A stretch of DNA of 40,252 nt from a virus: positions 1 through 40,252 of the IMG/VR virus record IMGVR_UViG_3300047510_003204; one strand, 5' to 3'. Below, piece after piece: positions 22,501 to 39,796 of the stretch. Positions within the stretch are counted from its first letter, which is position 1, and each line of letters begins with the position of its first letter. Both the position numbers and the translations under genes were made by a program. Below the pieces are notes generated by a model. It did not search any database. It saw only the letters and a program-made list of their open reading frames with translations, and was not told the origin of the DNA.

Positions 22501-25500
22501 TATTTCCAAAAATACTAATATCTGGCGGTGAATTATAATTACTTCCACCATTCAAAACTAAAACTTGAGTTATTCTTCCATTATTAACTATCGGAGAAAG
22601 TTGAGCCCCCGTTCCAATTCCCAATACAACATTAGGTTGTCTTTCATAATTTATAATTTCGGATGAACCATACCCAACACCAGAATTGTTAACAAATACT
22701 TTACTGATTGAACCCCTAAAAATTGGTTGAATTACTGCATTAAAATCTTGACCAGTCCTCGTGGAAACTCCCACAATTCCATCAACAGATACCACAATAT
22801 CTTCATAATTAAAAATGTGTTCTGAAGATCCTATTGATGTCAAATTTACAGTTTGATTTGTTCTAAAATAAAAATCTTTAGATGTTGATCCAATTCCAAC
22901 CTCAGATAACCTAAATTGATTATCATTTACTTTTATTGCATAATAAGACTTACCATTCTCCAGTCCACCTATCGGTAGACTGGTTGAAGTATATTTCAAT
23001 ATTTCACCAGTTTTATACCCGTGTTCTGGAATGTTTATTATATTAGAAGTAGTGCTTACTCCGGAAGAAAAACATGAAGTCTTTTTATTCGAATAGTTAG
23101 AACCTCTATCAATTATAGAAAAACTAGAAATTTTTCTCTTAATAGAAGTTGCTTCAAATTCATGAACACCTACTCCATATGAAGTTAAATTTATCGTGTT
23201 AATTCCGGAAACAGAATCATTTAAAGTTTTATGCAATCTAATATTAAAAGAATCCTGAACGTTTACATAATATTGTGCTTTGGATGTCAATCCACCAACA
23301 GGAGTTTGTCCATTTGGCAAATATATCACTTGTTCATTATCTCTAAATTTGTGATAAGTGGAAAATCCTATTGTATTTGTAGATAAATTGACGAATAGTG
23401 AAGACTCAATAGAATTAAATGAAACTTTATGCCTGAAACTAGTTAGATTTACTTTTGCAACCGCTCCAGAACCATTTCCTCCAGAGATGGTTACTATTGG
23501 ATCTGAAATATAATCAAATCCAGGATCAATAATATCAATAGAATTTAATTCACCAGTAACTTGAACATATGCAGTTGCATTTGAACCGTTTTCATCCAAT
23601 ATTTCAATATTTGGAGGATTGATTACATCATAGTCATCTCCACCATCTATTACATTGATTTTATCAATTCCACCATAATAAACTTTATCTTCTGATTTAT
23701 AACTAAAAGCTTCAACACCATTAACAAATATTCCAACAGGACCAACAGGAGTTTCAAATTTTTTCCCATTTACGGGTTTTGATATATTTTTTATAAAATT
23801 TTGCGAAGAAAAGGTAGAAAATTTTATTTTATTTTTTGAGAATATATTATTAGTTACTGATACATTATTTTCGATAGAAACATATCTTTTTTTGAAAAGA
23901 TCTAATTTGCTATTGGCAAGTTTTATTCTCGTATTATCGACTTTTTCAACATAATATACTTTACTCAGAATTCCCAGATTATTTCGTAGGTCAGAAGTAT
24001 TTGTATCTTTGTAAATTACGGAGTCTCCAGTATAAAGTCCATGATAATTATTTGGATTTCCTGAGCTAAGGTCTAAAATTTCTCCACCGAAAGTGCCGGA
24101 AAAAACAATATCGGGGTTTTTTATATCAATATTTTCATTTAAATAATTTGGCAGTGAATTTGAAGCGACAAAAATTCCTGCATTCTCATTGGAATTTGGT
24201 ATATAAACATTTTGGACATTAGCAGAGTATTGATTTATGTAATCAAAGTTAGTAAATTTTGGTTTTACTATGCTCCTCTCTATCAAAAATTTTAAATTTA
24301 AATTTCCTATTGAAGGACCTTCTATACTTACAGAATTTTCATTGTTAATTCCCCTTATGGTATAATCATTAATATTTCCATCAGATGAAATTAGTTTAAC
24401 AATATCACCAATATAAAAATTATTTTTATCTATGGTTATAACTTCATATGAAAATAAATTTAAAGATGCGTTAGAGGATTTTGGTCCTATAATTTGTTTT
24501 ACTTTAAACTTATTGGCAATATTGAATATCCAATTGTTAGCAAGAACACCTTTTGCAGGATATCCTAGTGTATTGACTTTAAAAGTCTCTCCCTTTGACA
24601 TCAAATAGTTATTTTTATCAAAAGAAACATCGGAGATAACTCCGGTGATTCTTACTTTTACAATATTCCCACCAAATTCAGAGTAAGCAAAATTGTTTAT
24701 TTTTATATCAGTTCCTTTTGGTATTTCTACATCAGTTGTACCAAATAAAGAAAATTGTGTAATATTTTCTATTATATATGAATTGATGTATTCTTGACCA
24801 TTAACAGAATACGTCAATTCACCAGTTTTTGGAAATCCGATTGTAGAATCTACAGTCAAGACTGCAGAATTTAAGTCAGCATTTGTAGTTAATTTTGTAC
24901 TTGGATGTATCTTAAAATTTCCGTAAACAGTTCCATCAACTGTCAGATCTTTAGAATAGTCTGCATCCAAACTCAGTACATAATAATTTTTATTTAATCT
25001 TTGTATTTTTTCTACTCTTGTAATAGTCCCATATGCTTTAGAGAAAAACTGAGATTCTTCTGATCCAGATTCATCTTGATATAGAGTTCTGTTAAGGAGA
25101 GACATTGGATCCCCTGATACAGATTCTACTACCAAATCTCTTGTTATTCTATAGTTTGCATCAGAAGGTTTAAACAAATAATCTCTTGGTCTTAAAATTT
25201 CAATATTTTCACCAAAAAGTGCTTTAAATATAACCTGATAGGAATCTTCAGTTCCTTTTGAACTATAAAAATCCTTTACTTGCTTTATAAAAGTACTTTG
25301 ATTTACTCCATCAACAAAAGTTTTGTTTTCAAATCCCGGAGTTAGTTGTTTTTTAATTTTTAATAAAAATTCCTTTAGCAGCAAAAGGCTTAAATTTTCT
25401 ACAGAAGAATTATTTTCATGATTCTCTACTTGAGAAGTTGAAAAAGTTAATTGATCTGTCGTATTTTCTGTCCTATATGATGTTATTCCACTAAAACCTC

Positions 25501-31351: not shown

Positions 31352-31606
31352 CTAGAAATCGAACACGTCTGAGTTAATCTGAATCCTGTTAACTTTAGGG
31401 GATCCCCAAGATACGCCATCGGGGTTATGTTCGGGATAACCCATCAGAAACAGTGTGGTGATGAATGACTCATAATCACCACACTCAGCAGCAAGGTGAT
31501 ACAAACCCTCATCATTGTTGATCCACAGAGCAACATTCCAGGTCTCATAATTCTCCCAACCATTATACTCAGTGGAGAGGAGATTGCGTTGGTAAGTAAC
31601 AGTCAT
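31352..31606 (-). CDS. NYETWNV-motif small protein (DUF7249-like), 84 aa
   Basis: Residues 15-32 hold NGWENYETWNVALWINND, a block I recognise from a small family present in phages and bacteria. It is followed by GDYESFITTLFLMGYPEHNP and a short beta C-terminus ending FDF. Function is unknown. The ATG overlaps the TGA of a 16-aa upstream reading frame (ATGA), so its translation is probably coupled to that frame. Confidence 0.75.
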   Translation of the reverse strand: MTVTYQRNLLSTEYNGWENYETWNVALWINNDEGLYHLAAECGDYESFITTLFLMGYPEHNPDGVSWGSPKVNRIQINSDVFDF

Positions 31607-31653
31607 TGGTGGTTAGTTAGTGAATCTTTCGGGGTGAGTTGTGTGCCCCTCAT
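31603..31653 (-). CDS. Possible leader ORF opened by the repeat element, 16 aa
   Basis: The ATG provided by the repeat copy at 31651-31689 opens MRGTQLTPKDSLTNHQ, and the TGA overlaps the ATG of the 84-aa gene. It may act only to deliver ribosomes to that gene. Too short to be certain that it encodes a functional peptide. Confidence 0.4.
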   Translation of the reverse strand: MRGTQLTPKDSLTNHQ

Positions 31654-31689
31654 ACTATAAGTCCACTTTGCAGCTAAGCAACTTTATTT
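31651..31689 (-). repeat. Cassette-boundary repeat, copy R1 (diverged)
   Basis: The copy furthest downstream in the transcription direction, with several substitutions (GTTGCTTAG, CTGCAAAGTGGAC, TTATAGTATG). It ends in ATG, which opens the 16-aa leader frame rather than a full gene. No gene stop lies at its 5' side, unlike all the other copies. Confidence 0.85.
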
Positions 31690-31758
31690 GGTGCATCTCT
31701 ACGTATCACTTAGGTCCTTACAGTTCTCTACTCAATCACTCACTACGTTCGTGATTAC

Positions 31759-31809
31759 CTAACGGTGTTCTCTGGTGTATAATAAGACTGGTGGCTTAAG
31801 CTTACTCAT
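31759..31809 (-). CDS. Possible leader peptide, 16 aa
   Basis: Directly downstream of a sigma70 promoter, ATG at 31809 opens MSKLKPPVLLYTREHR, with GGAGG and AAGGGA upstream. It is followed by an inverted repeat (AATCAC / GTGATT) before copy R1. The arrangement resembles a regulatory leader, but a chance frame cannot be excluded. Confidence 0.35.
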   Translation of the reverse strand: MSKLKPPVLLYTREHR

Positions 31810-31837
31810 AGTTCCCTTATTAACCTCCACAAAGGTA

Positions 31838-31866
31838 ATTGTATCAGAAACAGTAAGGTATGTCAA
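31838..31866 (-). promoter_or_regulatory. Sigma70-type promoter for the 84-aa / 60-aa / 46-aa unit
   Basis: Minus strand TTGACA (31861-31866), a 17-bp spacer and TACAAT (31838-31843). It begins just past an intrinsic terminator, so it restarts transcription. The boxes and spacing are the same as in the promoter at 32128-32156. Confidence 0.75.
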
Positions 31867-31872
31867 GGCATT

Positions 31873-31897
31873 AAAAAAGACCCCACTAGGAGTCTTT
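31873..31897 (-). terminator. Intrinsic terminator after the 57-aa gene
   Basis: On the minus strand AAAGACTCC pairs with GGGGTCTTT around a TAGT loop, and the stem runs into six T. This is a clear Rho-independent terminator, 28 nt past the stop of the 57-aa gene. The plus strand has a weaker T-run, so it could work in both directions. Confidence 0.8.
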
Positions 31898-31924
31898 CAA
31901 GGAGTGTATATGAGGTTTTATAAG

Positions 31925-32098
31925 TTACCACCTATCAGGTCTACTTAGGTCTTCTACGTATGCTTCTACCTTCTCAGCTGGTTCCAACTTAAATACTTTC
32001 TCCCAGTCAAGTTGGTGCGGGTCGAAGTCTTCGAAGACCTCAAGTTCTAGGGTGACTCTATAACGCTGCTTCTGAGCTTTCTGATACGCAACCGACAT
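31925..32098 (-). CDS. Small acidic protein, 57 aa
   Basis: The frame opens MSVAYQKAQKQRYRVTLELE and ends LSRPDRW. Residues 12-20 form a likely strand; the rest is acidic and helical (FDPHQLDWEKVFKLEPAEKV). A good AAGGAG site lies 7 nt upstream, a sigma70 promoter about 30 nt upstream and a terminator downstream, so this is a complete single-gene early unit. Function is unknown. Confidence 0.75.
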   Translation of the reverse strand: MSVAYQKAQKQRYRVTLELEVFEDFDPHQLDWEKVFKLEPAEKVEAYVEDLSRPDRW

Positions 32099-32127
32099 AA
32101 GTGTGCTCCTTGAGTGTTACTGTAGGT

Positions 32128-32156
32128 ATTGTAAGATGCCTGGGAATTGTTGTCAA
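32128..32156 (-). promoter_or_regulatory. Sigma70-type promoter of the 57-aa gene
   Basis: Minus strand TTGACA (32151-32156), a 17-bp spacer and TACAAT (32128-32133), about 30 nt before the ATG. A NATAAATA late-type octamer (32168-32175) lies just upstream, so both early and late transcription are possible. Confidence 0.8.
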
Positions 32157-32342
32157 GTCCTTGGGGGTATTTATTCGGGGCGTGGAGATTTTATGAGGTA
32201 TGTGTGGGGATTTGATAACGCGGGGGTGCTTGACATTTGTGCGCGTGTGTGATAGCTTGCAGGCAAAGATCACAAGGTCTCAGCACATTTAAAAGGGTAT
32301 AAGTGTCAGGTCTAGAAGGGTTTAATAGGGTATAAAAGGTCA

Positions 32343-32397
32343 CTAATTCTCAATTAGAACCCTTATTGATTCTCAATAACTAACATCTTATTGAGAA
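32343..32397. repeat. Cluster of three inverted repeats in a non-coding stretch
   Basis: Within 55 bp there are three perfect inverted repeats: CTAATT-CTC-AATTAG (32343-32357), TTATTGA-TTC-TCAATAA (32363-32379) and TTCTCAATAA with TTATTGAGAA around 8 nt (32370-32397). The second and third share one arm, so they cannot form together. The whole stretch 32157-32482 has no convincing gene; it also holds short direct repeats of AGGGTATAA (about 32290-32335) and an AAAAAAGGCTTTTTT tract (32422-32436). Confidence 0.65.
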
Positions 32398-32482
32398 CAA
32401 ATAAACCGCTTAGCTATAATTAAAAAAGGCTTTTTTATTGATTTCATAACATTTAAGCATTAAAATAACGTTTTTTGGCAAT

Positions 32483-32511
32483 AAAAAAGAGAGGGTAACC
32501 ACTCCCTCTCT
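32483..32511 (-). terminator. Intrinsic terminator closing the small-gene array
   Basis: On the minus strand AGAGAGGG pairs perfectly with CCCTCTCT around an 8-nt loop, followed by six T. It lies about 115 nt past the stop of the 68-aa gene. A further GC-rich hairpin (CTCCC / GGGAG, 32523-32537) lies between. Confidence 0.85.
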
Positions 32512-32627
32512 CTATAATCCAACTCCCGAAGGGGGAGCGCAAGCGCCACCAAATGAATAGGAATTATCTATCACTTTACAGAGTCACTTTCTTTTGTAGA
32601 TGAGGCAAACTCCTTCCTCACTATGTG

Positions 32628-32834
32628 TTACTGATTGAGTGTGTCTCTACAATACTTGAACCTCTCCCATTCTTCATCAGTAAAGTTATCTGATGCATAT
32701 GGTATTCCTACAACATAGGCACAGAACTTGTTGACGTTTTCGTTATTGTTTGATTGTGCATTGACTGCTACTGTAGCAAGACAAGTGAGGACTAGAAGTT
32801 CAACAGCAAACGTGATGTTTAGAAAAGGTTTCAT
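32628..32834 (-). CDS. Small exported protein with signal peptide, 68 aa
   Basis: Residues 1-26 form a typical signal peptide (MKPFLNITFAVELLVLTCLA, then TVAVNA, with probable cleavage after A26). The mature part is about 42 aa, acidic, with Cys38 and Cys62 that could form a disulphide, and the helix DEEWERFKYCRD. It should act in the periplasm. Its ATG overlaps the stop of the upstream gene (ATGA). It is the last gene before the terminator. Function is unknown. Confidence 0.75.
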   Translation of the reverse strand: MKPFLNITFAVELLVLTCLATVAVNAQSNNNENVNKFCAYVVGIPYASDNFTDEEWERFKYCRDTLNQ

Positions 32835-33022
32835 TGAATAGTAGTGAGATCGATAACAGTAATGATTTCTAGTTGTTTAACATTAGGATCGAAATGTTCT
32901 TCCCATTCTTTATACAGAGCATAAGACTCTTCGATTAAATCTTGATCGACTAAATGTTCGATTTGAGATTGGACTTGCTCTAGGATGTTTGCGAGCATTG
33001 TATCCTTTTGTTGTTCGGTCAT
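32831..33022 (-). CDS. Small helical acidic protein, 63 aa
   Basis: The frame opens MTEQQKDTMLANILEQVQSQ and continues LIEESYALYKEWEEHFDPNV. It is mostly amphipathic helix and soluble. It begins immediately after the TAA of the 59-aa gene and ends in an ATGA overlap with the exported protein, so all three form one coupled module. No family is recognised. Confidence 0.7.
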   Translation of the reverse strand: MTEQQKDTMLANILEQVQSQIEHLVDQDLIEESYALYKEWEEHFDPNVKQLEIITVIDLTTIQ

Positions 33023-33202
33023 TTAGTTAAACCAGTGTGCTAATTCGGCAAGTTCTTCAGCAACATCATCTACATTATCTTCGGTGAGTTGAGATAACAG
33101 TTGGTCGATGTCTTCTTGTGGGACATAATACAAATCACCGTTGATTTCATTGGCAATTTGTTGTGCTTTGTCTAGGCAGATTTGCTGAAGTTGGTTGCTC
33201 AT
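33023..33202 (-). CDS. Small acidic protein, 59 aa
   Basis: The frame reads MSNQLQQICLDKAQQIANEI ... YYVPQEDIDQLLSQLTEDNV and ends ELAHWFN. The ATG lies at the very end of repeat copy R2. Predicted to be two helices around a short strand. Function is unknown. Confidence 0.72.
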   Translation of the reverse strand: MSNQLQQICLDKAQQIANEINGDLYYVPQEDIDQLLSQLTEDNVDDVAEELAELAHWFN

Positions 33203-33238
33203 ACTATAGGTCCACTTTGGAGCTAAGTAACTTTAATT
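33200..33238 (-). repeat. Cassette-boundary repeat, copy R2
   Basis: A consensus copy with loop AAAGT. Its 5' end touches the TGA stop of the 63-aa gene (33238-33429) and its 3' end is the ATG of the 59-aa gene. Confidence 0.95.
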
Positions 33239-33429
33239 CAGTCCAGTGAGAATACTTTAGAAGACACAAGTTGACCGTCTTGGTTATACTTTTCATAGGA
33301 CCAAGTGTTCTCATCTTGCTCTACATAAGAGTGCTCATTTCCATTGGCATCTGCTTTATGAAATGCACCACATTCAGGTTGGAAGTAATAACCAGATGCG
33401 ATAAGTGCTTCAGTAAATGTCATTGTCAT
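33238..33429 (-). CDS. Small unrecognised protein, 63 aa
   Basis: The frame opens MTMTFTEALIASGYYFQPEC and continues FHKADANGNEHSYVEQDENT, ending SSKVFSLD. It is rich in polar and aromatic residues and reads like a small beta protein with Gly-Asn turns (WSYEKYNQDGQLVSSKVF). The start could also be the second Met. The TGA stop abuts copy R2. Function is unknown. Confidence 0.7.
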   Translation of the reverse strand: MTMTFTEALIASGYYFQPECGAFHKADANGNEHSYVEQDENTWSYEKYNQDGQLVSSKVFSLD

Positions 33430-33440
33430 TTCAGTGAGTT

Positions 33441-33611
33441 TCAGTTAAACAGTGCGTGAATCTTGTTGCGGATGCTATACACATCTTCTGCATCAAAATC
33501 ATCATCATCGAGTGCATTTCCGACGAAGTTGTAGATCATATCCCACTGGTCTTCAGTGAAGAGATCGCGGAAGGTTTCCTTTTGCTTGGTAGTCATTTGA
33601 GTGTCAGTCAT
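33441..33611 (-). CDS. Small acidic protein, 56 aa
   Basis: The frame reads MTDTQMTTKQKETFRDLFTE ... WDMIYNFVGNALDDDDFDAE and ends RNKIHALFN. The DDDD tract and flanking helices give it a strong negative charge. The ATG is the last codon of repeat copy R3. It sits 11 nt before the 63-aa gene. Highly acidic small phage proteins sometimes mimic DNA, but nothing specific shows that here. Confidence 0.7.
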   Translation of the reverse strand: MTDTQMTTKQKETFRDLFTEDQWDMIYNFVGNALDDDDFDAEDVYSIRNKIHALFN

Positions 33612-33647
33612 ACTATAGGTCCGCTTTGGAGCTAAGTAACTTTAATT
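33609..33647 (-). repeat. Cassette-boundary repeat, copy R3
   Basis: A consensus copy with loop AAAGC. It joins the TGA stop of the 103-aa gene to the ATG of the 56-aa gene. Confidence 0.95.
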
Positions 33648-33958
33648 CAGTTCAACTTGATGGTATTGTAGAAAGGAACATCTCCATACTTAGTAGACAC
33701 AAACCATTCAAAGTTTTTCTGATAGACATACTCGCTATTCCCGTGCTCTGCAAGAATAGCATTGAGACGGGATTTGGTGGTGTTTGACTTATATCCGCCA
33801 TCAAACAATTCCAACCAAGTGTCACCTACCATTGCAATCAGATTGTTATACAGATAGACAAAGCTGACACCTTCAATGTTGACAACTTGTGTGTTGTCTT
33901 TCTTCCAATCAGTCTCAGTGCTGATTGCTTTATTCATTTGGCGTTCGATAACTCGCAT
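33647..33958 (-). CDS. Unrecognised protein, 103 aa
   Basis: The frame opens MRVIERQMNKAISTETDWKK. The core alternates strands and turns (VVNIEGVSFVYLYNNLIAMV, LELFDGGYKSNTTKSRLNAI) and ends YQKNFEWFVSTKYGDVPFYN. Soluble alpha/beta fold expected. It is the only gene of its module. The ATG of the upstream repeat copy is mutated to ATC, so translation must begin 21 nt further on. No family is recognised. Confidence 0.75.
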   Translation of the reverse strand: MRVIERQMNKAISTETDWKKDNTQVVNIEGVSFVYLYNNLIAMVGDTWLELFDGGYKSNTTKSRLNAILAEHGNSEYVYQKNFEWFVSTKYGDVPFYNTIKLN

Positions 33959-33979
33959 TTGGTTTTGGTTATGTGTGGT

Positions 33980-34018
33980 GATACTATAGGTCCACTTTGG
34001 AGCTAAGTAACTTTAATT
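33980..34018 (-). repeat. Cassette-boundary repeat, copy R4 (start codon lost)
   Basis: A consensus copy except that the terminal ATG is ATC. It supplies the TAA stop of the 61-aa gene at its 5' end. The following gene uses an ATG 21 nt downstream. Confidence 0.93.
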
Positions 34019-34202
34019 ACCTGCTCGGATAAAGACAAGAACTGATGCGACCTGGAGTAACAAGAACTTGTCCTCCTTTTGCAATACACTTTGCTTCGAT
34101 TTGTGGATTGCGAAAGTGTAAAATAGCAAAGGCAAGTGCGATGATGATAATGCCTACAACTGCTGCAAATACTGTTGCTTCAATGTTAGTTTGATTGTTC
34201 AT
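34017..34202 (-). CDS. Small single-pass membrane protein, 61 aa
   Basis: A short polar N-terminus (MNNQTNIE) is followed by a long hydrophobic segment (TVFAAVVGIIIIALAFAILH, residues 10-29) and a basic, Cys-containing tail (CIAKGGQVLVTPGRISSCLY). One membrane pass is clear; orientation is uncertain. The TAA stop lies in repeat copy R4. Possible roles include altering the host envelope, but this is speculation. Confidence 0.72.
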   Translation of the reverse strand: MNNQTNIEATVFAAVVGIIIIALAFAILHFRNPQIEAKCIAKGGQVLVTPGRISSCLYPSR

Positions 34203-34208
34203 TTGATG

Positions 34209-34496
34209 TCAGTGAGTGAAAGCACCGAGAGCATTAAACTCAGCAGCAATTTGCTTTTCTGCGATACGCTTACCGTTGATTTGGAAGGTATAACGCAACT
34301 GACCTTTTACAGTCTTGGCAACTTTACAGGTCAGGCAGATTTCGCCATCTCGTGTACCTTGCAAATCATACTTTGCGAAGTAGTGGTTACAAACTCCGGG
34401 CAACCGATAATCAACAACACCGTTGAGTTGTTGATAGTGTTCGAGAGCAATCTGCTCGCTGAGTTTGATGGAGTCGAAGAGGTCAGTGATGTTCAT
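34209..34496 (-). CDS. Unrecognised protein with CxxC and CN-H residues, 95 aa
   Basis: The frame opens MNITDLFDSIKLSEQIALEH. Residues 36-57 contain CNHYFAKYDLQGTRDGEICL followed by TCK, so Cys36, His38, Cys54 and Cys57 could bind zinc, and are followed by basic strands (KTVKGQLRYTFQINGKRIAE). A small zinc-binding fold is a reasonable guess. The ATG is the last codon of repeat copy R5, and it is followed by the membrane protein after 6 nt. Confidence 0.72.
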   Translation of the reverse strand: MNITDLFDSIKLSEQIALEHYQQLNGVVDYRLPGVCNHYFAKYDLQGTRDGEICLTCKVAKTVKGQLRYTFQINGKRIAEKQIAAEFNALGAFTH

Positions 34497-34532
34497 ACTA
34501 TAGGTCCGCTTTGGAGCTAAGTAACTTTAATT
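34494..34532 (-). repeat. Cassette-boundary repeat, copy R5
   Basis: A consensus copy with loop AAAGC. It supplies the TAA stop of the 46-aa gene (34527-34529) and the ATG of the 95-aa gene. Confidence 0.95.
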
Positions 34533-34667
34533 GACGATAACATCAGGTCCAATCACATCACAAAACTCTGACAAGTAATAGTCAATATTCACACCAGCTT
34601 CATCTGCAAGTGTGCTATACTCATTGAATTGTTCCTCATTCAGAAGAAAGAACTCAGTCTCAATCAT
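34527..34667 (-). CDS. Small acidic protein, 46 aa
   Basis: The frame reads MIETEFFLLNEEQFNEYSTL ... INIDYYLSEFCDVIG-type acidic C-terminus ending PDVIVN. Its start overlaps the last 8 nt of the 49-aa membrane-protein gene in another frame. The TAA stop is inside repeat copy R5. No family is recognised. Confidence 0.68.
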   Translation of the reverse strand: MIETEFFLLNEEQFNEYSTLADEAGVNIDYYLSEFCDVIGPDVIVN

Positions 34668-34809
34668 TGGTCGAAATAATGTCTGCTAATGTGTGTAGTG
34701 TGTTGGATGTTGTGTTGCGAACTCCTGGTGAGAGTATCATTGCAACGATGAAGACAAGTGCAATCGTTTTCACTTTCGATGGATTCCTAAGTGTTAGTCT
34801 CCTTGCCAT
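34660..34809 (-). CDS. Small membrane or exported protein, 49 aa
   Basis: A basic N-terminus (MARRLTLRNPSKVK) precedes a hydrophobic segment (TIALVFIVAMILSPG, 15-29) and a polar tail (VRNTTSNTLHTLADIISTND). It is either a single-pass membrane protein or an uncleaved signal-anchored peptide. Its ATG overlaps the TGA of the 58-aa gene (TGATG). Confidence 0.65.
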   Translation of the reverse strand: MARRLTLRNPSKVKTIALVFIVAMILSPGVRNTTSNTLHTLADIISTND

Positions 34810-34985
34810 CAATCGCGGTCAGAGATGTTCCAAACAGTTTCGGGGCAAGGAATATACTTCCCAGAGAGAATTGCTTGCCTACGTGCTTCTTCACGCTCCA
34901 ACTGTTTGACATAATTTGCCATTGCAAGTTGCACTGCAGCATCATTCTTTGCAGTGTCGTTGAGAATGAAAGCATTGTTAGTCAT
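34809..34985 (-). CDS. Small helical protein, 58 aa
   Basis: The frame reads MTNNAFILNDTAKNDAAVQL ... MANYVKQLEREEARRQAILS and ends PETVWNISDRD. A long charged helix occupies residues 15-42. It starts after the truncated repeat copy R6, then overlaps two further small genes. Function is unknown. Confidence 0.7.
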   Translation of the reverse strand: MTNNAFILNDTAKNDAAVQLAMANYVKQLEREEARRQAILSGKYIPCPETVWNISDRD

Positions 34986-35011
34986 AATGTGAGTCCTAAG
35001 TAACTTTAATT
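34983..35011 (-). repeat. Cassette-boundary repeat, copy R6 (hairpin lost)
   Basis: The first 16 nt (AATTAAAGTTACTTAG) are intact and supply the TAA stop of the 44-aa gene. The hairpin loop and 3' arm are replaced by an unrelated 10-nt spacer before the ATG. It is a natural deletion variant of the element. Confidence 0.85.
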
Positions 35012-35140
35012 GCAGTAGCTTGGATCTATCTGACAGAAGCGATCTGCTTGCTGTTCTTGATACTCATTCACTGTAGCATGAGCACTCAAACCAAGGCGAA
35101 GTCCCAGTGCTAAAGTTGCAATCAGAAAAGCAATTCTCAT
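35006..35140 (-). CDS. Small exported protein, 44 aa
   Basis: An N-terminal signal peptide (MRIAFLIATLALGLRLGLSA, cleavage probably after HA at 22) leaves a mature peptide of about 22 aa, TVNEYQEQQADRFCQIDPSY followed by CN, with two Cys. The design resembles the 68-aa exported protein. It overlaps the upstream gene (TGATG) and its TAA stop is in copy R6. Confidence 0.7.
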   Translation of the reverse strand: MRIAFLIATLALGLRLGLSAHATVNEYQEQQADRFCQIDPSYCN

Positions 35141-35304
35141 CAGACTTCATCCTGCATTTCAGTGAGTTTGTCATAAAGATCTCTGCAGATGCCTACATCG
35201 TAACCAGTAATCTCAACCATTTCATGCCAACTTTCTTTTGTGTGATGTTCAATGAGTACCAGAAGAGCATCAATCTCCTCAAAAGTGAGAGTGGTTTGTG
35301 TCAT
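35140..35304 (-). CDS. Small acidic helical protein, 54 aa
   Basis: The frame reads MTQTTLTFEEIDALLVLIEH ... SWHEMVEITGYDVGICRDLY and ends MQDEV. Predicted three short helices. It lies between the 55-aa gene (6-nt gap) and the exported 44-aa protein. Function is unknown. Confidence 0.7.
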   Translation of the reverse strand: MTQTTLTFEEIDALLVLIEHHTKESWHEMVEITGYDVGICRDLYDKLTEMQDEV

Positions 35305-35310
35305 AATCAA

Positions 35311-35478
35311 TCAAACAACAGAGTAACAAGCAACAGAGGAAGGAATACCCGATAATGCTAACGAACTGTTGCGGTCATCAGCATAATCTTGTGCATCATC
35401 TTCAGAGTAGAAAGGTCCAATATACTCGGGAGAGTTGAGTGAAGGAGACTCGAAACGGACGGTGAAAGTGTTAGTCAT
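35311..35478 (-). CDS. Small unrecognised protein, 55 aa
   Basis: The frame reads MTNTFTVRFESPSLNSPEYI ... FYSEDDAQDYADDRNSSLAL and ends SSVACYSVV. The strand-helix-strand arrangement with EDDAQDYADDRN looks like a small alpha/beta domain. Its ATG is the last codon of repeat copy R7. Confidence 0.7.
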   Translation of the reverse strand: MTNTFTVRFESPSLNSPEYIGPFYSEDDAQDYADDRNSSLALSGIPSSVACYSVV

Positions 35479-35514
35479 ACTATAGGTCCGCTTTGGAGCT
35501 AAGTAACTTTAATT
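35476..35514 (-). repeat. Cassette-boundary repeat, copy R7
   Basis: A consensus copy with loop AAAGC, joining the TGA of the 60-aa gene to the ATG of the 55-aa gene. Confidence 0.95.
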
Positions 35515-35696
35515 CACAGACCGTTGATGAAGTCTGCGAGTGCTTCTTTGTACTCAGTTTCAGTAGCAAAAGTGCGACCGTGAATGGTACGAGGGTAGGT
35601 AACTTTCTGACGCCCAGCATCAGCAACCATTTGGCAGTCTTTCTCATCGTAACCCATTTCGATGAGGTTTTGAACGTAGGGATTGGAGTGTGTCAT
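35514..35696 (-). CDS. Small unrecognised protein, 60 aa
   Basis: The frame opens MTHSNPYVQNLIEMGYDEKD and continues CQMVADAGRQKVTYPRTIHG, ending YKEALADFINGL. The first half resembles a UBA-like helix pair (LIEMGYDEKDCQMVADAG), the second a short strand and helix. It is alone between copies R8 and R7, the smallest single-gene module. The resemblance is weak and no function is assigned. Confidence 0.72.
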   Translation of the reverse strand: MTHSNPYVQNLIEMGYDEKDCQMVADAGRQKVTYPRTIHGRTFATETEYKEALADFINGL

Positions 35697-35732
35697 ACTA
35701 TAGGTCCACTTTAGAGCTAAGTAACTTTAATT
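35694..35732 (-). repeat. Cassette-boundary repeat, copy R8
   Basis: One change from consensus: CTCC becomes CTCT in the 5' arm, turning the closing C-G pair into U-G. It supplies the TAA of the 52-aa gene and the ATG of the 60-aa gene. Confidence 0.94.
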
Positions 35733-35885
35733 GTCACCGAAGTTGTCGATAAGGAAGTCCTCAAGCTGAGTGATTTGAGATTTATTCAAACTCTTAATGT
35801 ATTCACCAATCACTACAGCAAGAAGTGCAGGACTTTCCATACACTTTTCGCGCAAAAAATCCTCAAGTTCGGTTATGTTAGTCAT
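35727..35885 (-). CDS. Small acidic protein with duplicated LEDFL motif, 52 aa
   Basis: The frame reads MTNITELEDFLREKCMESPA ... SLNKSQITQLEDFLIDNFGD and ends N. The TELEDFLREK and TQLEDFLIDN segments suggest an internal helix duplication. An in-frame ATG also occurs one codon earlier (35888). The TAA stop is inside copy R8. Function is unknown. Confidence 0.7.
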   Translation of the reverse strand: MTNITELEDFLREKCMESPALLAVVIGEYIKSLNKSQITQLEDFLIDNFGDN

Positions 35886-35891
35886 CATCAA

Positions 35892-36116
35892 TCAGGCAGG
35901 AAGGATACAGAAAGTGCCGCACCATTTGCGAACCCATTGTAGAGTTTCATCGTAGGAAGTGCGGGGTTTCGACATAGGCATCGAAACATTCTTTTCGGGG
36001 TTGTATGCAATAGCAACGAACTTGTCATTCACTTGCTGAATCCACATTTGATTCACTTTACCTTCTTTCCAGTTGGTGTGATAGTGGTAGACTTCGGGCA
36101 TTTCAGTGATGTTCAT
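35892..36116 (-). CDS. Small unrecognised protein, 74 aa
   Basis: The frame opens MNITEMPEVYHYHTNWKEGK and continues VNQMWIQQVNDKFVAIAYNP, then YDETLQWVRKWCGTFCILPA. Beta-rich first half, then a helix with two Cys. The ATG is the last codon of repeat copy R9. No family is recognised. Confidence 0.72.
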   Translation of the reverse strand: MNITEMPEVYHYHTNWKEGKVNQMWIQQVNDKFVAIAYNPEKNVSMPMSKPRTSYDETLQWVRKWCGTFCILPA

Positions 36117-36152
36117 ACTATAGGTCCACTTTGGAGCTAAGTAACTTTAATT
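36114..36152 (-). repeat. Cassette-boundary repeat, copy R9
   Basis: A consensus copy with loop AAAGT. It supplies the TAA of the 161-aa gene and the ATG of the 74-aa gene. Confidence 0.95.
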
Positions 36153-36632
36153 CTGCGTACTTTTCACTTCTGCAGGTGCATCAGGGACATCAAATCCTTT
36201 TTTGATTTCATCACCTTTGACGAAACCAAGTCCACCTAGAATAAGTGCAAGTGCAAGAACGATTGCTGCCTTTGAGTGTCCCAAATCATCATCACGTTCG
36301 TTATATTCTTCGATGCTTTGTCCTGTTACTTTCTCACCAACCCAAGTTCCGAAAGCACCACCTAAACCCATCAAAATCCAGGGAGTGAATGATACAAATG
36401 CCCATGCAGCTGCAACCAATCCGATGAGTCCTACAGTTCCACCAATACTACCAAAATCAGAACCTGAAGAACTGCCACTATTTCTAACCTCTCTCAGATT
36501 AGCAATTTGTTGAACGTCACCGTGCTTTGCATAGATTTGCTCTTTTGCACCAGAGAATGTCGAAGCTTGAACCTCAGTCGTGATACGTCCGACGCGGGAG
36601 TTTACGAATACATCTGCTCGCCAAGTTGCCAT
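36147..36632 (-). CDS. Membrane protein with soluble N-domain, 161 aa
   Basis: The frame starts at the ATG at 36632 (MATWRADVFVNSRVGRITTE); an upstream TTG is less likely because this ATG overlaps the previous stop (TAATG). Residues 1-50 look like a small alpha/beta domain (ASTFSGAKEQIYAKHGDVQQ). A Ser/Gly linker follows, then hydrophobic segments (GTVGLIGLVAAAWAFVSFTP and WILMGLGGAFGTWVGEKVTG) and a third (AAIVLALALILGGLGFVKG). It is probably an inner-membrane protein with two or three passes. Function is unknown. Confidence 0.7.
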   Translation of the reverse strand: MATWRADVFVNSRVGRITTEVQASTFSGAKEQIYAKHGDVQQIANLREVRNSGSSSGSDFGSIGGTVGLIGLVAAAWAFVSFTPWILMGLGGAFGTWVGEKVTGQSIEEYNERDDDLGHSKAAIVLALALILGGLGFVKGDEIKKGFDVPDAPAEVKSTQN

Positions 36633-36886
36633 TACCAAGTACCTCTTTGAATGTGAATTTTACGGATTTCAGAGTAAATGAAGCGTTGAAGTTTGGGGTC
36701 GGTAGTGTTATCAAAAGCATAATACAGACGATTTAAGTATTCGTCTTGTGTTGCTCCTATGTTACCATCACCACCGATGTCGTTGAGTGTAGAACCCGCA
36801 GAAACCTTTGGTTTTCCCCAATTTCCAGTTATGCGACCTTCAGTACGAAGTTTAGGACGAATCTTTGAGAGATTAGAGTAAGTCAT
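36632..36886 (-). CDS. Small basic protein, 84 aa
   Basis: The first half (MTYSNLSKIRPKLRTEGRIT, GNWGKPKVSAGSTLND) is basic and probably flexible. The second half (DEYLNRLYYAFDNTTDPKLQ) is helical and ends YSEIRKIHIQRGTW. It overlaps its neighbours on both sides by 1 to 4 nt, so it belongs to one coupled four-gene module (80, 85, 84 and 161 aa). No family is recognised. Confidence 0.7.
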   Translation of the reverse strand: MTYSNLSKIRPKLRTEGRITGNWGKPKVSAGSTLNDIGGDGNIGATQDEYLNRLYYAFDNTTDPKLQRFIYSEIRKIHIQRGTW

Positions 36887-37140
36887 TCATTCCACCCCTC
36901 AAAGTATTCAGTAAAAAAGTTAAAACTCAAATCATATTTACCAATCTGAAAATCTACTCCAAATAAAGAACTGGTAAAAAATGAGAGTAGGATATGAAGA
37001 CCACCAGAAGGATAAACTTGACAACTGGGGTTCTCATAATTCACCCACAGAAATGAATGATTTTTGAAGATACCAAACTGCCAAGTGCGTGAAGTTTCAC
37101 CACCTTCCCAAACTTTTTTATCGTATTGAAAGAGTTTCAT
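36883..37140 (-). CDS. Unrecognised protein, 85 aa
   Basis: The frame opens MKLFQYDKKVWEGGETSRTW and ends FFTEYFEGWNE. It is rich in aromatic residues and strands (QFGIFKNHSFLWVNYENPSC) with a hydrophobic middle (GLHILLSFFTSSLFGVDFQI) that is more like a buried core than a membrane segment. ATGA overlaps occur at both ends. Function is unknown. Confidence 0.7.
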   Translation of the reverse strand: MKLFQYDKKVWEGGETSRTWQFGIFKNHSFLWVNYENPSCQVYPSGGLHILLSFFTSSLFGVDFQIGKYDLSFNFFTEYFEGWNE

Positions 37141-37379
37141 CGTACAATAATCTCCAGGGATTCCAACAGCATCATAGAAAGTTCCATCTGGTTGTCTTCA
37201 TCAATCACAGGAATGTTTGATTCTACAAACTCACTTGCAAGTTGTGCTATAAGTTCTGTCATCCTTTCGTCATTGTAAGCAAAGGTCGCAAAATCACTTT
37301 TGAAACCATCACGCAGCAGGCGCAGGGAACGTGTTACTGTAAGGTCGTTAATAGTGTCGGTCATTTCAGTGGTTGTCAT
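37137..37379 (-). CDS. Small acidic helical protein, 80 aa
   Basis: The frame opens MTTTEMTDTINDLTVTRSLR and continues ELIAQLASEFVESNIPVIDE, ending MLLESLEIIVR. It is largely helical and soluble. It is the first gene of the four-gene module and its ATG is the last codon of repeat copy R10. No family is recognised. Confidence 0.72.
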   Translation of the reverse strand: MTTTEMTDTINDLTVTRSLRLLRDGFKSDFATFAYNDERMTELIAQLASEFVESNIPVIDEDNQMELSMMLLESLEIIVR

Positions 37380-37414
37380 ACTATAAGTCCACTTTGAAGC
37401 TAAGCAACTTTAAT
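37377..37414 (-). repeat. Cassette-boundary repeat, copy R10 (diverged)
   Basis: It shares GTTGCTTAG and GGACTTATAG changes with R1, and has CTTC for CTCC. Most changed stem positions can still pair as G-U. It joins the TGA of the 307-aa gene to the ATG of the 80-aa gene. Confidence 0.92.
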
Positions 37415-38337
37415 CACCCCCAATTCTTGGCGATGGTAAAGTTTGCGTGAGAGAATGTTTCACGGTCAACGACTTTGTAAGTACCAAACTTGTTGCGAAT
37501 GACATAACCTTCGTGGAAACTTACCTCATCACCAATAGAGCACTCAATCTCATCCAGTTCGTGAATGAAAAGGAACAAATCATCCTTGATAGACTTCACC
37601 AGTTTCCACAAAGAGATGAGATACTTGTCACAATCACATTTTTCTGCAATTTCATTTTCATCCACGACCTTTTCCTCACGGATGCAAGCGTTAATCTCTT
37701 TTTTGATTTGTGATGCTTTCTTATCGCTCACAAACTCACACAGAGTAGACATTTGCTTGGCAAACTTACACACATCCTCCAAATCCTCACGGAAAGGGTT
37801 AAGTTCGACTTCAGGCTGCACGAACAAGCAATGCTTAGTGCTGATGAGTTTGCTAGTCAGAGGAGCAGCAGTCATCTCACGAATGTCATCGGAACCGCTG
37901 TAGATTGTATGTGGAGCGATAACAATATCCTGGCGAACTGGCGCAGGGAACTTGTAAGTAATCGTATTGGGAGTAAATGTATCCAACCCACCACCAAAAC
38001 CAATCCAATCACCTTGCATCACTTGTTGAGTGCGAGGCAGGAAATCTAGGCAGAAAATGAGAATCTGTGTTACCCTTGGTTGTCCACCGAAATGGGTGAA
38101 GATGTCATCTTCGTTATAGCAAAGGCGAATCTTTTTCTTGTTAAATGCTGCTTTGGTGCAGACAAAGAACTTACCATTCTGAGGATTAGTTCCCCACACA
38201 ATAGCTGGGGCACCATCCATCTTCACACTGATAGTAGATTCTACCTCAGAGAACCAATCAAGCACTGACAGATTGCCAGTCAAAATCTCATCTTCTGGGT
38301 GCTCTAGGTGCTTGTTTTGCATCGGTTTGGTCTTCAT
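37414..38337 (-). CDS. Ligase / nucleotidyltransferase-like protein, 307 aa
   Basis: Four blocks fall in the order of the covalent nucleotidyltransferase fold shared by DNA ligases, RNA ligases and capping enzymes. They are a motif I-like VKMDGAP (Lys39, where the family carries the AMP-accepting Lys in KxDG), a motif III-like QGDWIGFGG (108-116), a motif IV-like HEGYVIRN (275-282) and a motif V-like YKVVDR (287-292). Between motifs III and IV lies an unusual Lys/Glu/Cys-rich helical insertion (about 180-265, including EKCDCDKYL). The ATG is the last codon of repeat copy R11. Length fits a minimal ligase or a mobile ligase-like protein. Whether it is active, and on DNA or RNA, is unknown. Confidence 0.6.
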   Translation of the reverse strand: MKTKPMQNKHLEHPEDEILTGNLSVLDWFSEVESTISVKMDGAPAIVWGTNPQNGKFFVCTKAAFNKKKIRLCYNEDDIFTHFGGQPRVTQILIFCLDFLPRTQQVMQGDWIGFGGGLDTFTPNTITYKFPAPVRQDIVIAPHTIYSGSDDIREMTAAPLTSKLISTKHCLFVQPEVELNPFREDLEDVCKFAKQMSTLCEFVSDKKASQIKKEINACIREEKVVDENEIAEKCDCDKYLISLWKLVKSIKDDLFLFIHELDEIECSIGDEVSFHEGYVIRNKFGTYKVVDRETFSHANFTIAKNWG

Positions 38338-38373
38338 ACTACAGGTCCGCTTTGGAGCTAAGTAACTTTAATT
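38335..38373 (-). repeat. Cassette-boundary repeat, copy R11
   Basis: One change, CCTATAG to CCTGTAG, turns a U-A stem pair into U-G. The loop is AAAGC. It ends in the ATG of the 307-aa gene; the methyltransferase TAG lies 13 nt upstream of it. Confidence 0.95.
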
Positions 38374-38386
38374 TGATAAAAGTTTG

Positions 38387-39157
38387 CTAGAATGAGGTAA
38401 CATCCACGGGAATCTGAGTGATTCTATCTTGAGCAATTTCAAAGTATCCAGGATCACTATCCATTCCAATAAACTTGCGACCAAGTTTAACAGCTGCTAC
38501 ACCAGTTGATCCAGATCCCATACAATTGTCAAGTACAGTTTCACCTTCGTTAGAATAAGTCTTGATCAACCATTCCATCAGAGGAACAGGTTTTTGTGTT
38601 GGATGAACTTGTTGCTGAGCACTGAAATCTCTAGAAATGTTGAGAACTGACTTTGGATACCTAGTACCATCATTGGAGAATGATTTGCGAGGTTTCATAC
38701 CATAACCGTGATCATTTTTTCTCCCAACGTAACCCTCAGGATTTTTACTTGTTCTTGAGTATGGTTCTCCTTTTTCCATCTGTGGGTTGTAAGTTCCACC
38801 TGATTCTTTGGAGAAGATCATTATATTCTCGTGGGTCTTCATTGGTCTGTATTTGGCAAGTCCAGGCGACCCACATTTGTTTTTGTTCCATACTAATTCG
38901 TACCTGAACCAGTTAATCTTTGAGCAGATAAGTTGTGCAGAGAAAGGTTGAGAACCAAACAGACAAATTATACCTTTCGGTTTAATGATTCTACCATACT
39001 GTTCCCACATCTCGTTGAAATCGAGAACAGAATCCCACTTAATGCTAGTAGTTCCATAAGGAGGATCGCAACAAATAAAATCAATAGATTCGTCTGGAAT
39101 TGATTGCATCAACTCCAAACAATCCCCAAATTGCAGATCAAAGTTGTTCAAAACCAT
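38387..39157 (-). CDS. DNA methyltransferase, beta-class (N6-adenine or N4-cytosine), 256 aa
   Basis: Catalytic motif DPPY (31-34) precedes the recognition region, followed by HPTQKP (185-190) and the SAM-binding motif in LDNCMGSGSTG (209-219) and GRKFIGMDSD. Motif IV before motif I is the beta-class order. The protein transfers a methyl group from SAM to an exocyclic amino group in DNA. The middle (GTYNPQMEKGEPYSRTSKNP) probably sets specificity; the site is unknown. Its start overlaps the end of the upstream gene by 20 nt. It may protect phage DNA from host restriction or from the product of that upstream gene. Confidence 0.92.
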   Translation of the reverse strand: MVLNNFDLQFGDCLELMQSIPDESIDFICCDPPYGTTSIKWDSVLDFNEMWEQYGRIIKPKGIICLFGSQPFSAQLICSKINWFRYELVWNKNKCGSPGLAKYRPMKTHENIMIFSKESGGTYNPQMEKGEPYSRTSKNPEGYVGRKNDHGYGMKPRKSFSNDGTRYPKSVLNISRDFSAQQQVHPTQKPVPLMEWLIKTYSNEGETVLDNCMGSGSTGVAAVKLGRKFIGMDSDPGYFEIAQDRITQIPVDVTSF

Positions 39158-39743
39158 CGTGTGCGTTAATCTTACGGCGTACTGATTCCTTGTAACATTC
39201 TATCAGAAACTCATACGATTGTCCATAGTCACGTTGAACAGGTTGAATGTTATCTTTCCACTTGATTTGGAATGGAAGATTGTTGCCGTTAGGAGTTAGC
39301 TTGTTCAGAGATTTAAGACTCTGCAAATAAACTTCGCGAGTCCCCTTATCAACTGCAATGATATAATAATCGCGGTCATTTTCTTTTCCGCCATGATTCT
39401 TCAGGGCATCCTGAAACTTACCCCAGGAGGAAACAATCACTTTATCCTCGGGAAGATCAGTCAAAGCATAAAGAATTGCTGCTTTAGATGAAAAGTTGTC
39501 TGATGCACCCTTAGCAAAGTCGGAAGACTTAATGTTGAGAGGATAACCAAATAATTTTACATCCCACCAGCAACGTGCTGCTGGTTTTTGTACATTTTCT
39601 TCACCATATTTTTCAATGAGGAGATCAATTACAGTATCTTCATCTGTGATACTATTCACACGACCATCCTCGTGATTCTCACTGATTGTTACAATGCCAG
39701 AAAGATAATTAACGGCATCAATGAGTTGTTGTGGGAAAGTCAT
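39138..39743 (-). CDS. Possible restriction endonuclease (PD-(D/E)XK-like), 201 aa
   Basis: Residues 60-74 (numbered from the ATG at 39743) read CWWDVKLFGYPLNIKSS. The Asp followed nine residues later by NIK resembles the type II restriction core, D...(D/E)xK; EcoRV has D...DIK. A later strand (DRDYYIIAVDKGTREVYLQS) also fits that fold. The gene overlaps a DNA methyltransferase by 20 nt, the usual layout of a restriction-modification pair. An Asn takes the place of the second acidic residue, which could mean a variant or inactive site. The ATG is preferred over an upstream TTG (39764) because it overlaps the mini-ORF stop. Confidence 0.5.
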   Translation of the reverse strand: MTFPQQLIDAVNYLSGIVTISENHEDGRVNSITDEDTVIDLLIEKYGEENVQKPAARCWWDVKLFGYPLNIKSSDFAKGASDNFSSKAAILYALTDLPEDKVIVSSWGKFQDALKNHGGKENDRDYYIIAVDKGTREVYLQSLKSLNKLTPNGNNLPFQIKWKDNIQPVQRDYGQSYEFLIECYKESVRRKINAHDGFEQL

Positions 39744-39760
39744 TGAAATTGGGTGATCAT
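39740..39760 (-). CDS. Mini-ORF opened by repeat copy R12, 6 aa
   Basis: The ATG at the end of R12 opens MITQFQ, whose TGA overlaps the ATG of the endonuclease-like gene. The arrangement matches the 16-aa frame after R1. It is probably a ribosome delivery device, not a peptide gene. Confidence 0.4.
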   Translation of the reverse strand: MITQFQ

Positions 39761-39796
39761 GCAATAGGTCCGCTTTGGAGCTAAGTAACTTTAATC
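39758..39796 (-). repeat. Cassette-boundary repeat, copy R12
   Basis: The stem arms and AAAGC loop are intact, but the segment before the ATG reads TATTGC instead of TATAGT. It supplies the TAA of the 58-aa gene (39791-39793). Confidence 0.92.

Follow-up and report, generated by a model that had tools for sequence, protein, structure and literature searches.

Introduction

T4-like phages reportedly carry mobile cassettes known as promoter-early stem-loops (PeSLs), which are said to have been described by Arbiol in 2010 and Comeau in 2014. The middle promoters of T4 consist of a MotA box at about −30 and a −10 hexamer. MotA and AsiA are described in PMC5780444, and PMC4503421 mentions PeSLs, with few candidate parts of such cassettes in a region lost from S-PM2. 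For the halovirus HF2, PMC8707807 describes conserved intergenic repeats among early and middle genes that carry promoters. Here, we analyse a 39-nucleotide (nt) element that recurs in IMG/VR virus record IMGVR_UViG_3300047510_003204, a T4-like cyanophage fragment of 40,252 bases (hereafter, the window). Copies of the element head many of the small open reading frames (ORFs) of an array whose genes are much traded among marine cyanobacterial viruses. The element combines a common right core with a left box that is private to each lineage, and we lean towards reading it as a phage promoter cassette, built from a −10-like TATAGT and a lineage-private activator box, that doubles as a recombination joint.

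A close parallel is the PeSL. Both are short cassettes repeated between small genes in hyperplastic regions of T4-like phages, and modules are gained and lost between the copies of both; for the element, this shuffling is seen in 198 presence/absence intervals and in three of four segments that vary between two isolates (see below). Conversely, the PeSL has a terminator stem-loop, whereas no minus-strand terminator-like hairpin was found at the 11 window elements, and it has a strong sigma-70-like early promoter, whereas the element presents TATAGT at a −10-like place and no TTGACA-like −35. Mini-circles packaged in virions are a further reported trait of PeSLs. The lineage-private box is not known to have a counterpart in PeSLs. 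On the best reading of this comparison, the element works like a PeSL without a terminator. As in the T4 middle promoter, a specific box takes the place of a −35 and is followed by a −10, although the box of the element is lineage-private and its sequence unrelated to the MotA box. Like those of HF2, the copies of the element are conserved intergenic repeats; the HF2 repeats are archaeal promoters (TATA box and B recognition element), and the accessible part of PMC8707807 describes no private box such as the element has.

The element family and its distribution

The original prediction of eleven near-complete copies in one orientation was borne out by a search with the 39-nt consensus, which located them on the minus strand with starts at 31651, 33200, 33609, 33980, 34494, 35476, 35694, 36114, 37377, 38335 and 39758 (4, 0, 1, 1, 1, 1, 1, 0, 4, 2 and 4 mismatches, respectively). 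A 29-nt pattern with up to 3 mismatches recovered the same 11 minus-strand copies and none on the plus strand, and the reversed control pattern gave no site in the window. The twelfth, truncated copy foreseen at 34983 is likewise present, in degraded form, and the conservation is indeed far above that expected of spacers.

Beyond the view of this first reading, the element forms a large cyanophage family, in which the right core is shared while the left box is private to each lineage. Exact searches of IMG/VR returned 15 stretches with the window type, 99 with a looser pattern and at least 120 with the right half alone. In 222 of the 227 loci fetched (L numbers in the following), 1016 copies were detected at up to 2 mismatches to the core, and all copies lie on one strand in 186 of 188 multi-copy loci. 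Most loci were retrieved by parts of the motif; some searches fixed letters of both box and core, and one fixed the core only, so that the box letters were free in the loci it retrieved. As the IMG/VR loci include fragments of the same genome and near-duplicates (L004 and L005 with L007, L012 and L017; L026 with L028; L108 with L151, both S-SM2), the counts made across them are of loci, pairs or copies and not of independent events.

Named records carrying the element are SynMITS9220M01, S-B05, RB11-B, S-SM2 and the single-cell contig AG-345-O18. Searches of named phages with five typed consensuses, made with the basic local alignment search tool (BLAST), gave these five records, weak candidate matches in S-B43 and RN05-S (E 3 to 9) and no other cyanophage. 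Weak partial matches in Vibrio, Photobacterium, Mammaliicoccus, Pseudomonas, Streptococcus and gut phages were not considered further, and one exact pattern searched in a collection of bacterial and archaeal genomes gave no match. Three whole isolate genomes hold the copies on one strand of a single hyperplastic region: 11 copies at 42,683–57,113 in S-SM2, 12 at 36,295–49,998 in SynMITS9220M01 and 12 at 159,558–171,259 in RB11-B, with no copies elsewhere in these three genomes at up to 8 mismatches. In these phages and in S-B05, the region consists of small ORFs ahead of gp25, gp6 and gp7. No description of the element or of a lineage-private cyanophage promoter box was found in open-licence full text, a search that did not cover Fig. 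S5 of PMC3037559, which shows logos of predicted cyanophage promoters; S-SM2 is among the phages studied there.

Anatomy of the element

Positions within the element are counted from 0, which in the window type is the G that begins GTTACT. The right core (AAAGTGTCCCTATAGTRTRAGCAC) is much alike between loci, and positions 13–32, which comprise AAAGTG, variable bases and CCTATAGTRTRA, show little variation. The left box (positions 0–12, 13 nt) is uniform within a locus and not between loci. Comparison of 1863 within-locus pairs with 19,876 sampled between-locus pairs gave box identities of 0.889 and 0.469, respectively, whereas the right core scored 0.904 and 0.852 and the upstream flank 0.292 and 0.279. 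The private signal is sharply bounded: identity at positions 4–7 is 0.91 within and 0.39 between loci, compared to 0.30 and 0.26 at −13 to −8 and 0.37 and 0.35 at 37–45.

Altogether, 74 distinct locus box consensuses were obtained, many of them 1–2 bases apart; examples are GTTACTTAGCTCC (window), GTTACTCACCTCC, CTCTGGGGCCTTC, AACTGGGCCCCTG, AGGGGGGACGTGT, ACTTGGATCGTCC and TACTGAGCCACTT. Position 4 is C or G in 99% and position 8 is C in 90%, and the G+C content of the box is 0.57, compared to 0.40 in the upstream gene. Weaker A-tracts lie upstream at −18/−17 (A), −15/−14 (T) and −7 to −1 (AATTAAA), with a spacing of about one helical turn. Downstream of the core G is scarce (2–10% at positions 36–45).

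The box follows the genome

To relate the box to its neighbouring sequence, we took copies with a flank homologous to that in a locus of another box type (70 or more of 160 nt aligned; consensuses alike at no more than 8 of 13 positions). For each copy, we asked whether the box is closer to the remaining boxes of its own locus or to that of the homologue; pairs can be counted from both sides, and in this analysis, as in that of presence/absence intervals below, 3 mismatches were allowed and some false sites are included. For the flank after the element, the box was closer to its own locus in 834 of 854 cases, to the other locus in 14, with 6 ties; at 95% flank identity or more, the own locus was closer in 90 of 91 cases, with one tie. 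For the flank before the element, the corresponding numbers are 652 of 679 (24 closer to the other locus, 3 ties) and, at 95% or more, 43 of 49 (6 closer to the other locus). The exceptions include several false sites. One further case, L162:6140, is a foreign AGGGGGGACGTGT box in a TCTGGGGGCCTTC locus and apparently reflects a recent module import.

Modules thus move between lineages while the box stays that of the recipient. Crossing-over in the core at both ends of a module would import the box of the donor along with the element that follows. This is seldom seen, which implies that the box of the recipient is selected for or that conversion is rapid.

Exchange of modules

The original prediction had also proposed a recombination site, to be checked by whether gains and losses break exactly at the element. 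Modules are indeed present, absent or replaced with breaks there, but plain gene junctions break too. Alignments of the window array with other loci end inside an element in 259 of 1273 cases (20%, compared to 5.0% of positions) and within 30 nt of one in 540 of 1273 (42%, compared to 12.6% of positions). Gene adjacency is the fairer test, because genes are better conserved than gaps. In such tests, neighbours stayed together in 44 of 863 for element junctions and in 55 of 532 for plain junctions. Where a junction is broken, the gene still adjoins an element in the relative in 475 of 819 cases for element junctions and in 41 of 477 for plain ones. Hence the whole region is fluid, roughly twice as strongly at the element joints, and the element itself is retained; as plain gene junctions break as well, it is not the sole joint.

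There are 198 intervals, not independent of each other, in which two elements enclose a module in one locus and a single element joins the same outer flanks in another. The best of these are a 1090 bp interval in the comparison of L155 with L173 (flanks 98 and 99% identical) and one of 500 bp in that of L072 with L086 (96 and 97%). Misassembly at repeats could mimic some of the metagenome junctions, a caveat that does not touch the comparison of the isolates S-B05 and RB11-B. Here, four variable segments were found, one with both ends within 25 nt of an S-B05 element, two with one end and one with none. At closer range, the window array differs from its near-identical relative G001 at 12 of 8,952 aligned bases, all in two clusters: the first, of ten differences, spans 33,770–33,994 and reaches into element 33980, and the second consists of two differences no more than 7 nt from element 35694. 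Separately, successive elements in L001, L008 and L021 lead into one and the same gene start (ACCGACAACATTATG), a pattern that duplicated modules would produce.

Gene ownership and start codons

Loci L008, L010, L013, L014 and L018 were excluded from the ownership and adjacency tests as near the window. Homologues of window genes that are headed by an element are themselves headed by one in 333 of the 459 occurrences that could be tested, compared to 9 of 432 for window genes without. The same comparison for a downstream element gave 335 of 516 and 53 of 355. Individual genes cover a wide range, from ORF 35892–36116 (59 of 59 with an upstream element) through ORF 35514–35696 (32% of 47) to ORF 37137–37379 (2% of 48) and ORF 39138–39743 (0 of 2). 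The element belongs to the gene behind it: of the two links, that to an upstream element has the greater specificity, as expected of a promoter.

The distance from element to start codon is variable. It is 0 in 190 of 340 copies; among the other 150, the start follows at 15–24 nt in 98 and at less than 15 nt in 9, and lies further away or was not found in the rest.

Proposed promoter model and alternative explanations

The promoter reading is favoured because of the strand and position of the copies, gene ownership, the TATAGT hexamer, the phased A-tracts, the variable start distance and the presence of −10 cassettes in other phages. The latter recur before small genes at the corresponding genomic position in other cyanophages, and each was counted against one shuffle. 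They are clear in S-CAM7 (with TACAAT, 15 compared to 4 in the shuffle) and S-SSM6a (an inverted repeat and TATAAT, 11 compared to 4), and weaker in Syn33 and Syn9 (with ACTATAAGAG, 6 compared to 4 and 6 compared to 3). All four share with the element the genomic slot, the repetition and a −10-like hexamer before small genes; they differ in that the hexamer resembles TACAAT or TATAAT and is often followed by a longer leader and a Shine–Dalgarno-like run, and S-CAM7 and S-SSM6a additionally have a hairpin or inverted repeat.

Further features of these regions were noted in passing. Before gp25 in L227, L232 and L231 (S-SSM6a, P-SSM2 and Syn9), inverted repeats of the type GTGCCAGTT..AACTGGCAC lie near the ends of small genes; some enclose stop codons, and TATAAT-like hexamers follow in several places. 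In L228 (S-CAM7), about a dozen cassettes at 18016–23399 combine a G/C hairpin with TGCTACAATT, and most continue with a leader that has an AGGAAC-like run ahead of the ATG; a second cassette family (TGCCCTATACTA) occurs mainly upstream within the same region.

From the anatomy of the element we infer promoter activity, a start site and an activator that reads the box. The A-tracts at about −18 to −14 (AAnTT) and −7 to −1 (AATTAAA) may be contacted, in the manner of UP elements, by the RNA polymerase alpha subunits; they lie where UP elements would be expected. The box at 0–12 would be a lineage-private site for a putative trans-acting activator, placed about where the T4 middle promoter has its MotA box. 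TATAGT (23–28) would act as the −10, with transcription starting about seven bases behind it at the A of AGCAC, followed by a short G-poor leader. About a dozen such promoters would make up one regulon over the hyperplastic small-gene array. Because the core is nearly identical in all copies, it may also serve as a patch of recombination homology, so that modules would be inserted or deleted, would duplicate and would pass from phage to phage. Foreign boxes would then be lost or replaced, as only the recipient's box is proposed to be read.

A number of observations weigh against this model. The main difficulty is that many start codons overlap with the presumed −10. ATG is the next triplet after TATAGT in 573 of the 1005 copies analysed, 547 of which are open for 30 codons, and 188 of the 1005 have an open ATG frame with no other ATG, GTG or TTG in codons 2–13. 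Among the 190 copies at distance 0, the ATG frame is open for at least 40 codons in 97%, and DUF6267 homologues begin at the element ATG in several loci (MQNKHLEHPED..., MKNTHLEHPED...). The element ATG is therefore a true start codon in many copies, and if transcription starts behind TATAGT, such genes are readable only from an upstream promoter. Their mRNA could begin further upstream by read-through, which the lack of terminators in the array would allow, or the start site could lie elsewhere than the −10 implies. Sigma-70 features are scarce as well: no canonical TTGACA-like −35 accompanies TATAGT at the elements, and a sigma-70 scan never named TATAGT as second hexamer in the 11 window elements and returned fewer sites in the window (17) than in shuffles (21.0). 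One scanned site (35737–35708) overlaps an element, but with other hexamers. The core itself is less secure than its identity values suggest, as it was the search key for most loci and for all copy detection, so that its likeness is partly built in. It has diverged in S-B05 and RB11-B (e.g. AAAGGTCCACTATAGTGTAA), and TAGTAGT or similar replaces TATAGT in some or most copies of L056 and L085; L078 and L102 show the same replacement. The repeated cassettes of P-SSM2 (9 compared to 7) and S-RIM44 (5 compared to 4) are not clearly above their one shuffle, and uniform boxes are explicable by gene conversion too. Finally, comparison of the predicted proteins of S-SM2, SynMITS9220M01 and RB11-B for proteins closer than expected between the two phages that have TTACTCACCTC in common yielded no regulator among the ten candidates scanned (out of 46, five each from the 15 top rows and the 31 one-sided pairs).

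The scanned candidates were an outer-membrane-like protein, an epimerase, a glycosyltransferase, a sliding clamp, an S-adenosylmethionine (AdoMet) decarboxylase and small proteins without assignment. A PF04542 sigma-type domain was found in 8 of 10 records (4 over the cut-off); as element-free phages are included, it singles out no reader. As a separate observation, two sigma-70 matches of the form TTGACA-17-TACAAT (11/12) lie on the minus strand near the array end, at 32156–32128 and 31866–31838, and are unlike the elements.

The start codons could instead point to an element acting at the RNA level, i.e. a translation-initiation, processing or protein-binding site in a polycistronic array mRNA, with the ATG as a normal start. 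The copies are located between stop and start codons, the ATG behind TATAGT opens a gene in most ATG copies, and GTG is rare in its place (449 ATG compared to 11 GTG among 796 copies). Yet 347 of these 796 copies have no ATG there, and the variable start-codon distance also argues against such a site. The original prediction of a functional RNA signal is unsupported in the form given, since the start codon lies at varying distances and the 55 box-type consensuses have no fold in common (z −3.1 to +2.3). Several G-rich types do fold (down to −14.4 kcal/mol, z to −3.1), the window type weakly (−7.1 kcal/mol, z −1.2), and as the base pairs differ between box types, an RNA hairpin was rejected as the common feature. 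Moreover, A-tracts that extend into the upstream gene fit DNA contacts better, and a private box that is uniform across a locus has no obvious RNA reader. We therefore consider an RNA-level element rather unlikely. Even less probable, in our estimation, is a single-subunit RNA polymerase promoter of the T7/SP6 type, with transcription starting at the G of TATAG to give a nearly leaderless mRNA. The compact core ends in CTATAG, which resembles such promoters, and the ATG would fall inside the transcript. Still, PF00940 gave no match at E 0.1 in S-SM2, SynMITS9220M01, RB11-B and G001, where the T7 control reached 9.9e-110, and none in a set of ten records, whose own controls also gave no match; this reading we regard as highly improbable.

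The exchange data could also be read as molecular drive, where the element is mainly a recombination repeat whose box has no reader, drifts freely and is homogenised by ectopic gene conversion among the dozen copies. The many presence/absence intervals between elements, the difference clusters that end at elements in near-identical genomes and the successive elements with the same gene start in L001, L008 and L021 are in line with this view. Conversely, box and core are similarly uniform within a locus (0.889 and 0.904), whereas the neighbouring A-tract varies more (0.59 at −7 to −1 compared to 0.91 at 4–7), and the box is G+C-rich and constrained in kind at positions 4 and 8. Molecular drive as the main explanation thus appears improbable to us. 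Given how uniform the box is (about as much as the core), how sharply it is bounded and how its bases are constrained, we prefer selection through a private reader as the cause of its persistence; conversion alone is the less likely cause.

Element copies and genes of the window

The element was originally described as running from the stop codon of one gene to the start codon of the next. Its TAA is the preceding stop in four of the 11 copies (39758, 36114, 35694 and 34494) and not in the other seven; in 37377, 35476, 33980, 33609 and 33200 a TGA or TAA stop overlaps the first 1–2 bases of the element, and in 38335 and 31651 the stop lies further upstream. The ATG serves as the next start in eight copies. 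Among the three exceptions, 33980 has ATC, the frame of 31651 stops after 16 codons and that of 39758 is out of frame.

All copies are on the minus strand. Two are identical to the consensus, 33200–33238 and 36114–36152, and their ATG opens ORFs 33023–33202 and 35892–36116, respectively. The ATG of 33609–33647 (1 mismatch) opens ORF 33441–33611, in which a second ATG is codon 6; that of 34494–34532 opens ORF 34209–34496, which has no second ATG in the first 12 residues; that of 35476–35514 opens ORF 35311–35478, which lacks any other methionine; and that of 35694–35732 opens ORF 35514–35696. In the 4-mismatch variant 37377–37415 it opens ORF 37137–37379. Another 4-mismatch variant, 31651–31689, is of the leader type, with the next ORF starting at 31606. 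Copy 33980–34018 ends in TATAGTATC, without a start codon, and differs at one base from G001; the ORF that follows (Kyano_Gp96) starts at 33958, 24 nt past TATAGT. In 39758–39796, TATTGC replaces TATAGT, and ORF 39138–39743 starts behind it. The degraded copy at 34983–35011 has kept AATTAAAGTTACTTAG and the ATG and lost the right core, whose loss is not seen at the corresponding site L004:3004, where the copy is intact.

The ATG of copy 38335–38373 adds a 5-residue extension to the DUF6267 protein (37414–38337, minus strand), which was matched in 138 of 221 loci searched and is the most widespread array gene. Its K-DGAPAI stretch is reminiscent of nucleotidyltransferase ligases. Between elements 38335 and 39758 lies a two-gene module (38387–39743, minus strand) that encodes a DNA methylase (PF01555) and a second protein. 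The latter matches a gene of relatives annotated as restriction endonuclease; its match to ThaI is below the cut-off. Baseplate genes lie behind the array: ORF 26058–27968 matches gp6 (57% identity to S-SM2 gp6), and the next gene, 13547–26056 (4169 residues), by its position takes the place of gp7.

Conclusions

The element provides a handle on the accessory arrays of these phages, as it marks array genes, sets module borders and shows a testable rule by which the box follows the genome. In practice, the limits of modules can be drawn with it, and recent imports can be spotted in viromes because their box is foreign. Tentatively, and at somewhat less than even confidence, we propose that each lineage marks the promoters of its accessory array with a private 13-bp address read by a putative regulator of its own. 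Genes from the shared pool would be kept and expressed only with the recipient's address, and the specificity of the regulator would diversify in the manner of an incompatibility system. If this private-address reading is true, each lineage would lay a private regulon over a shared gene pool.

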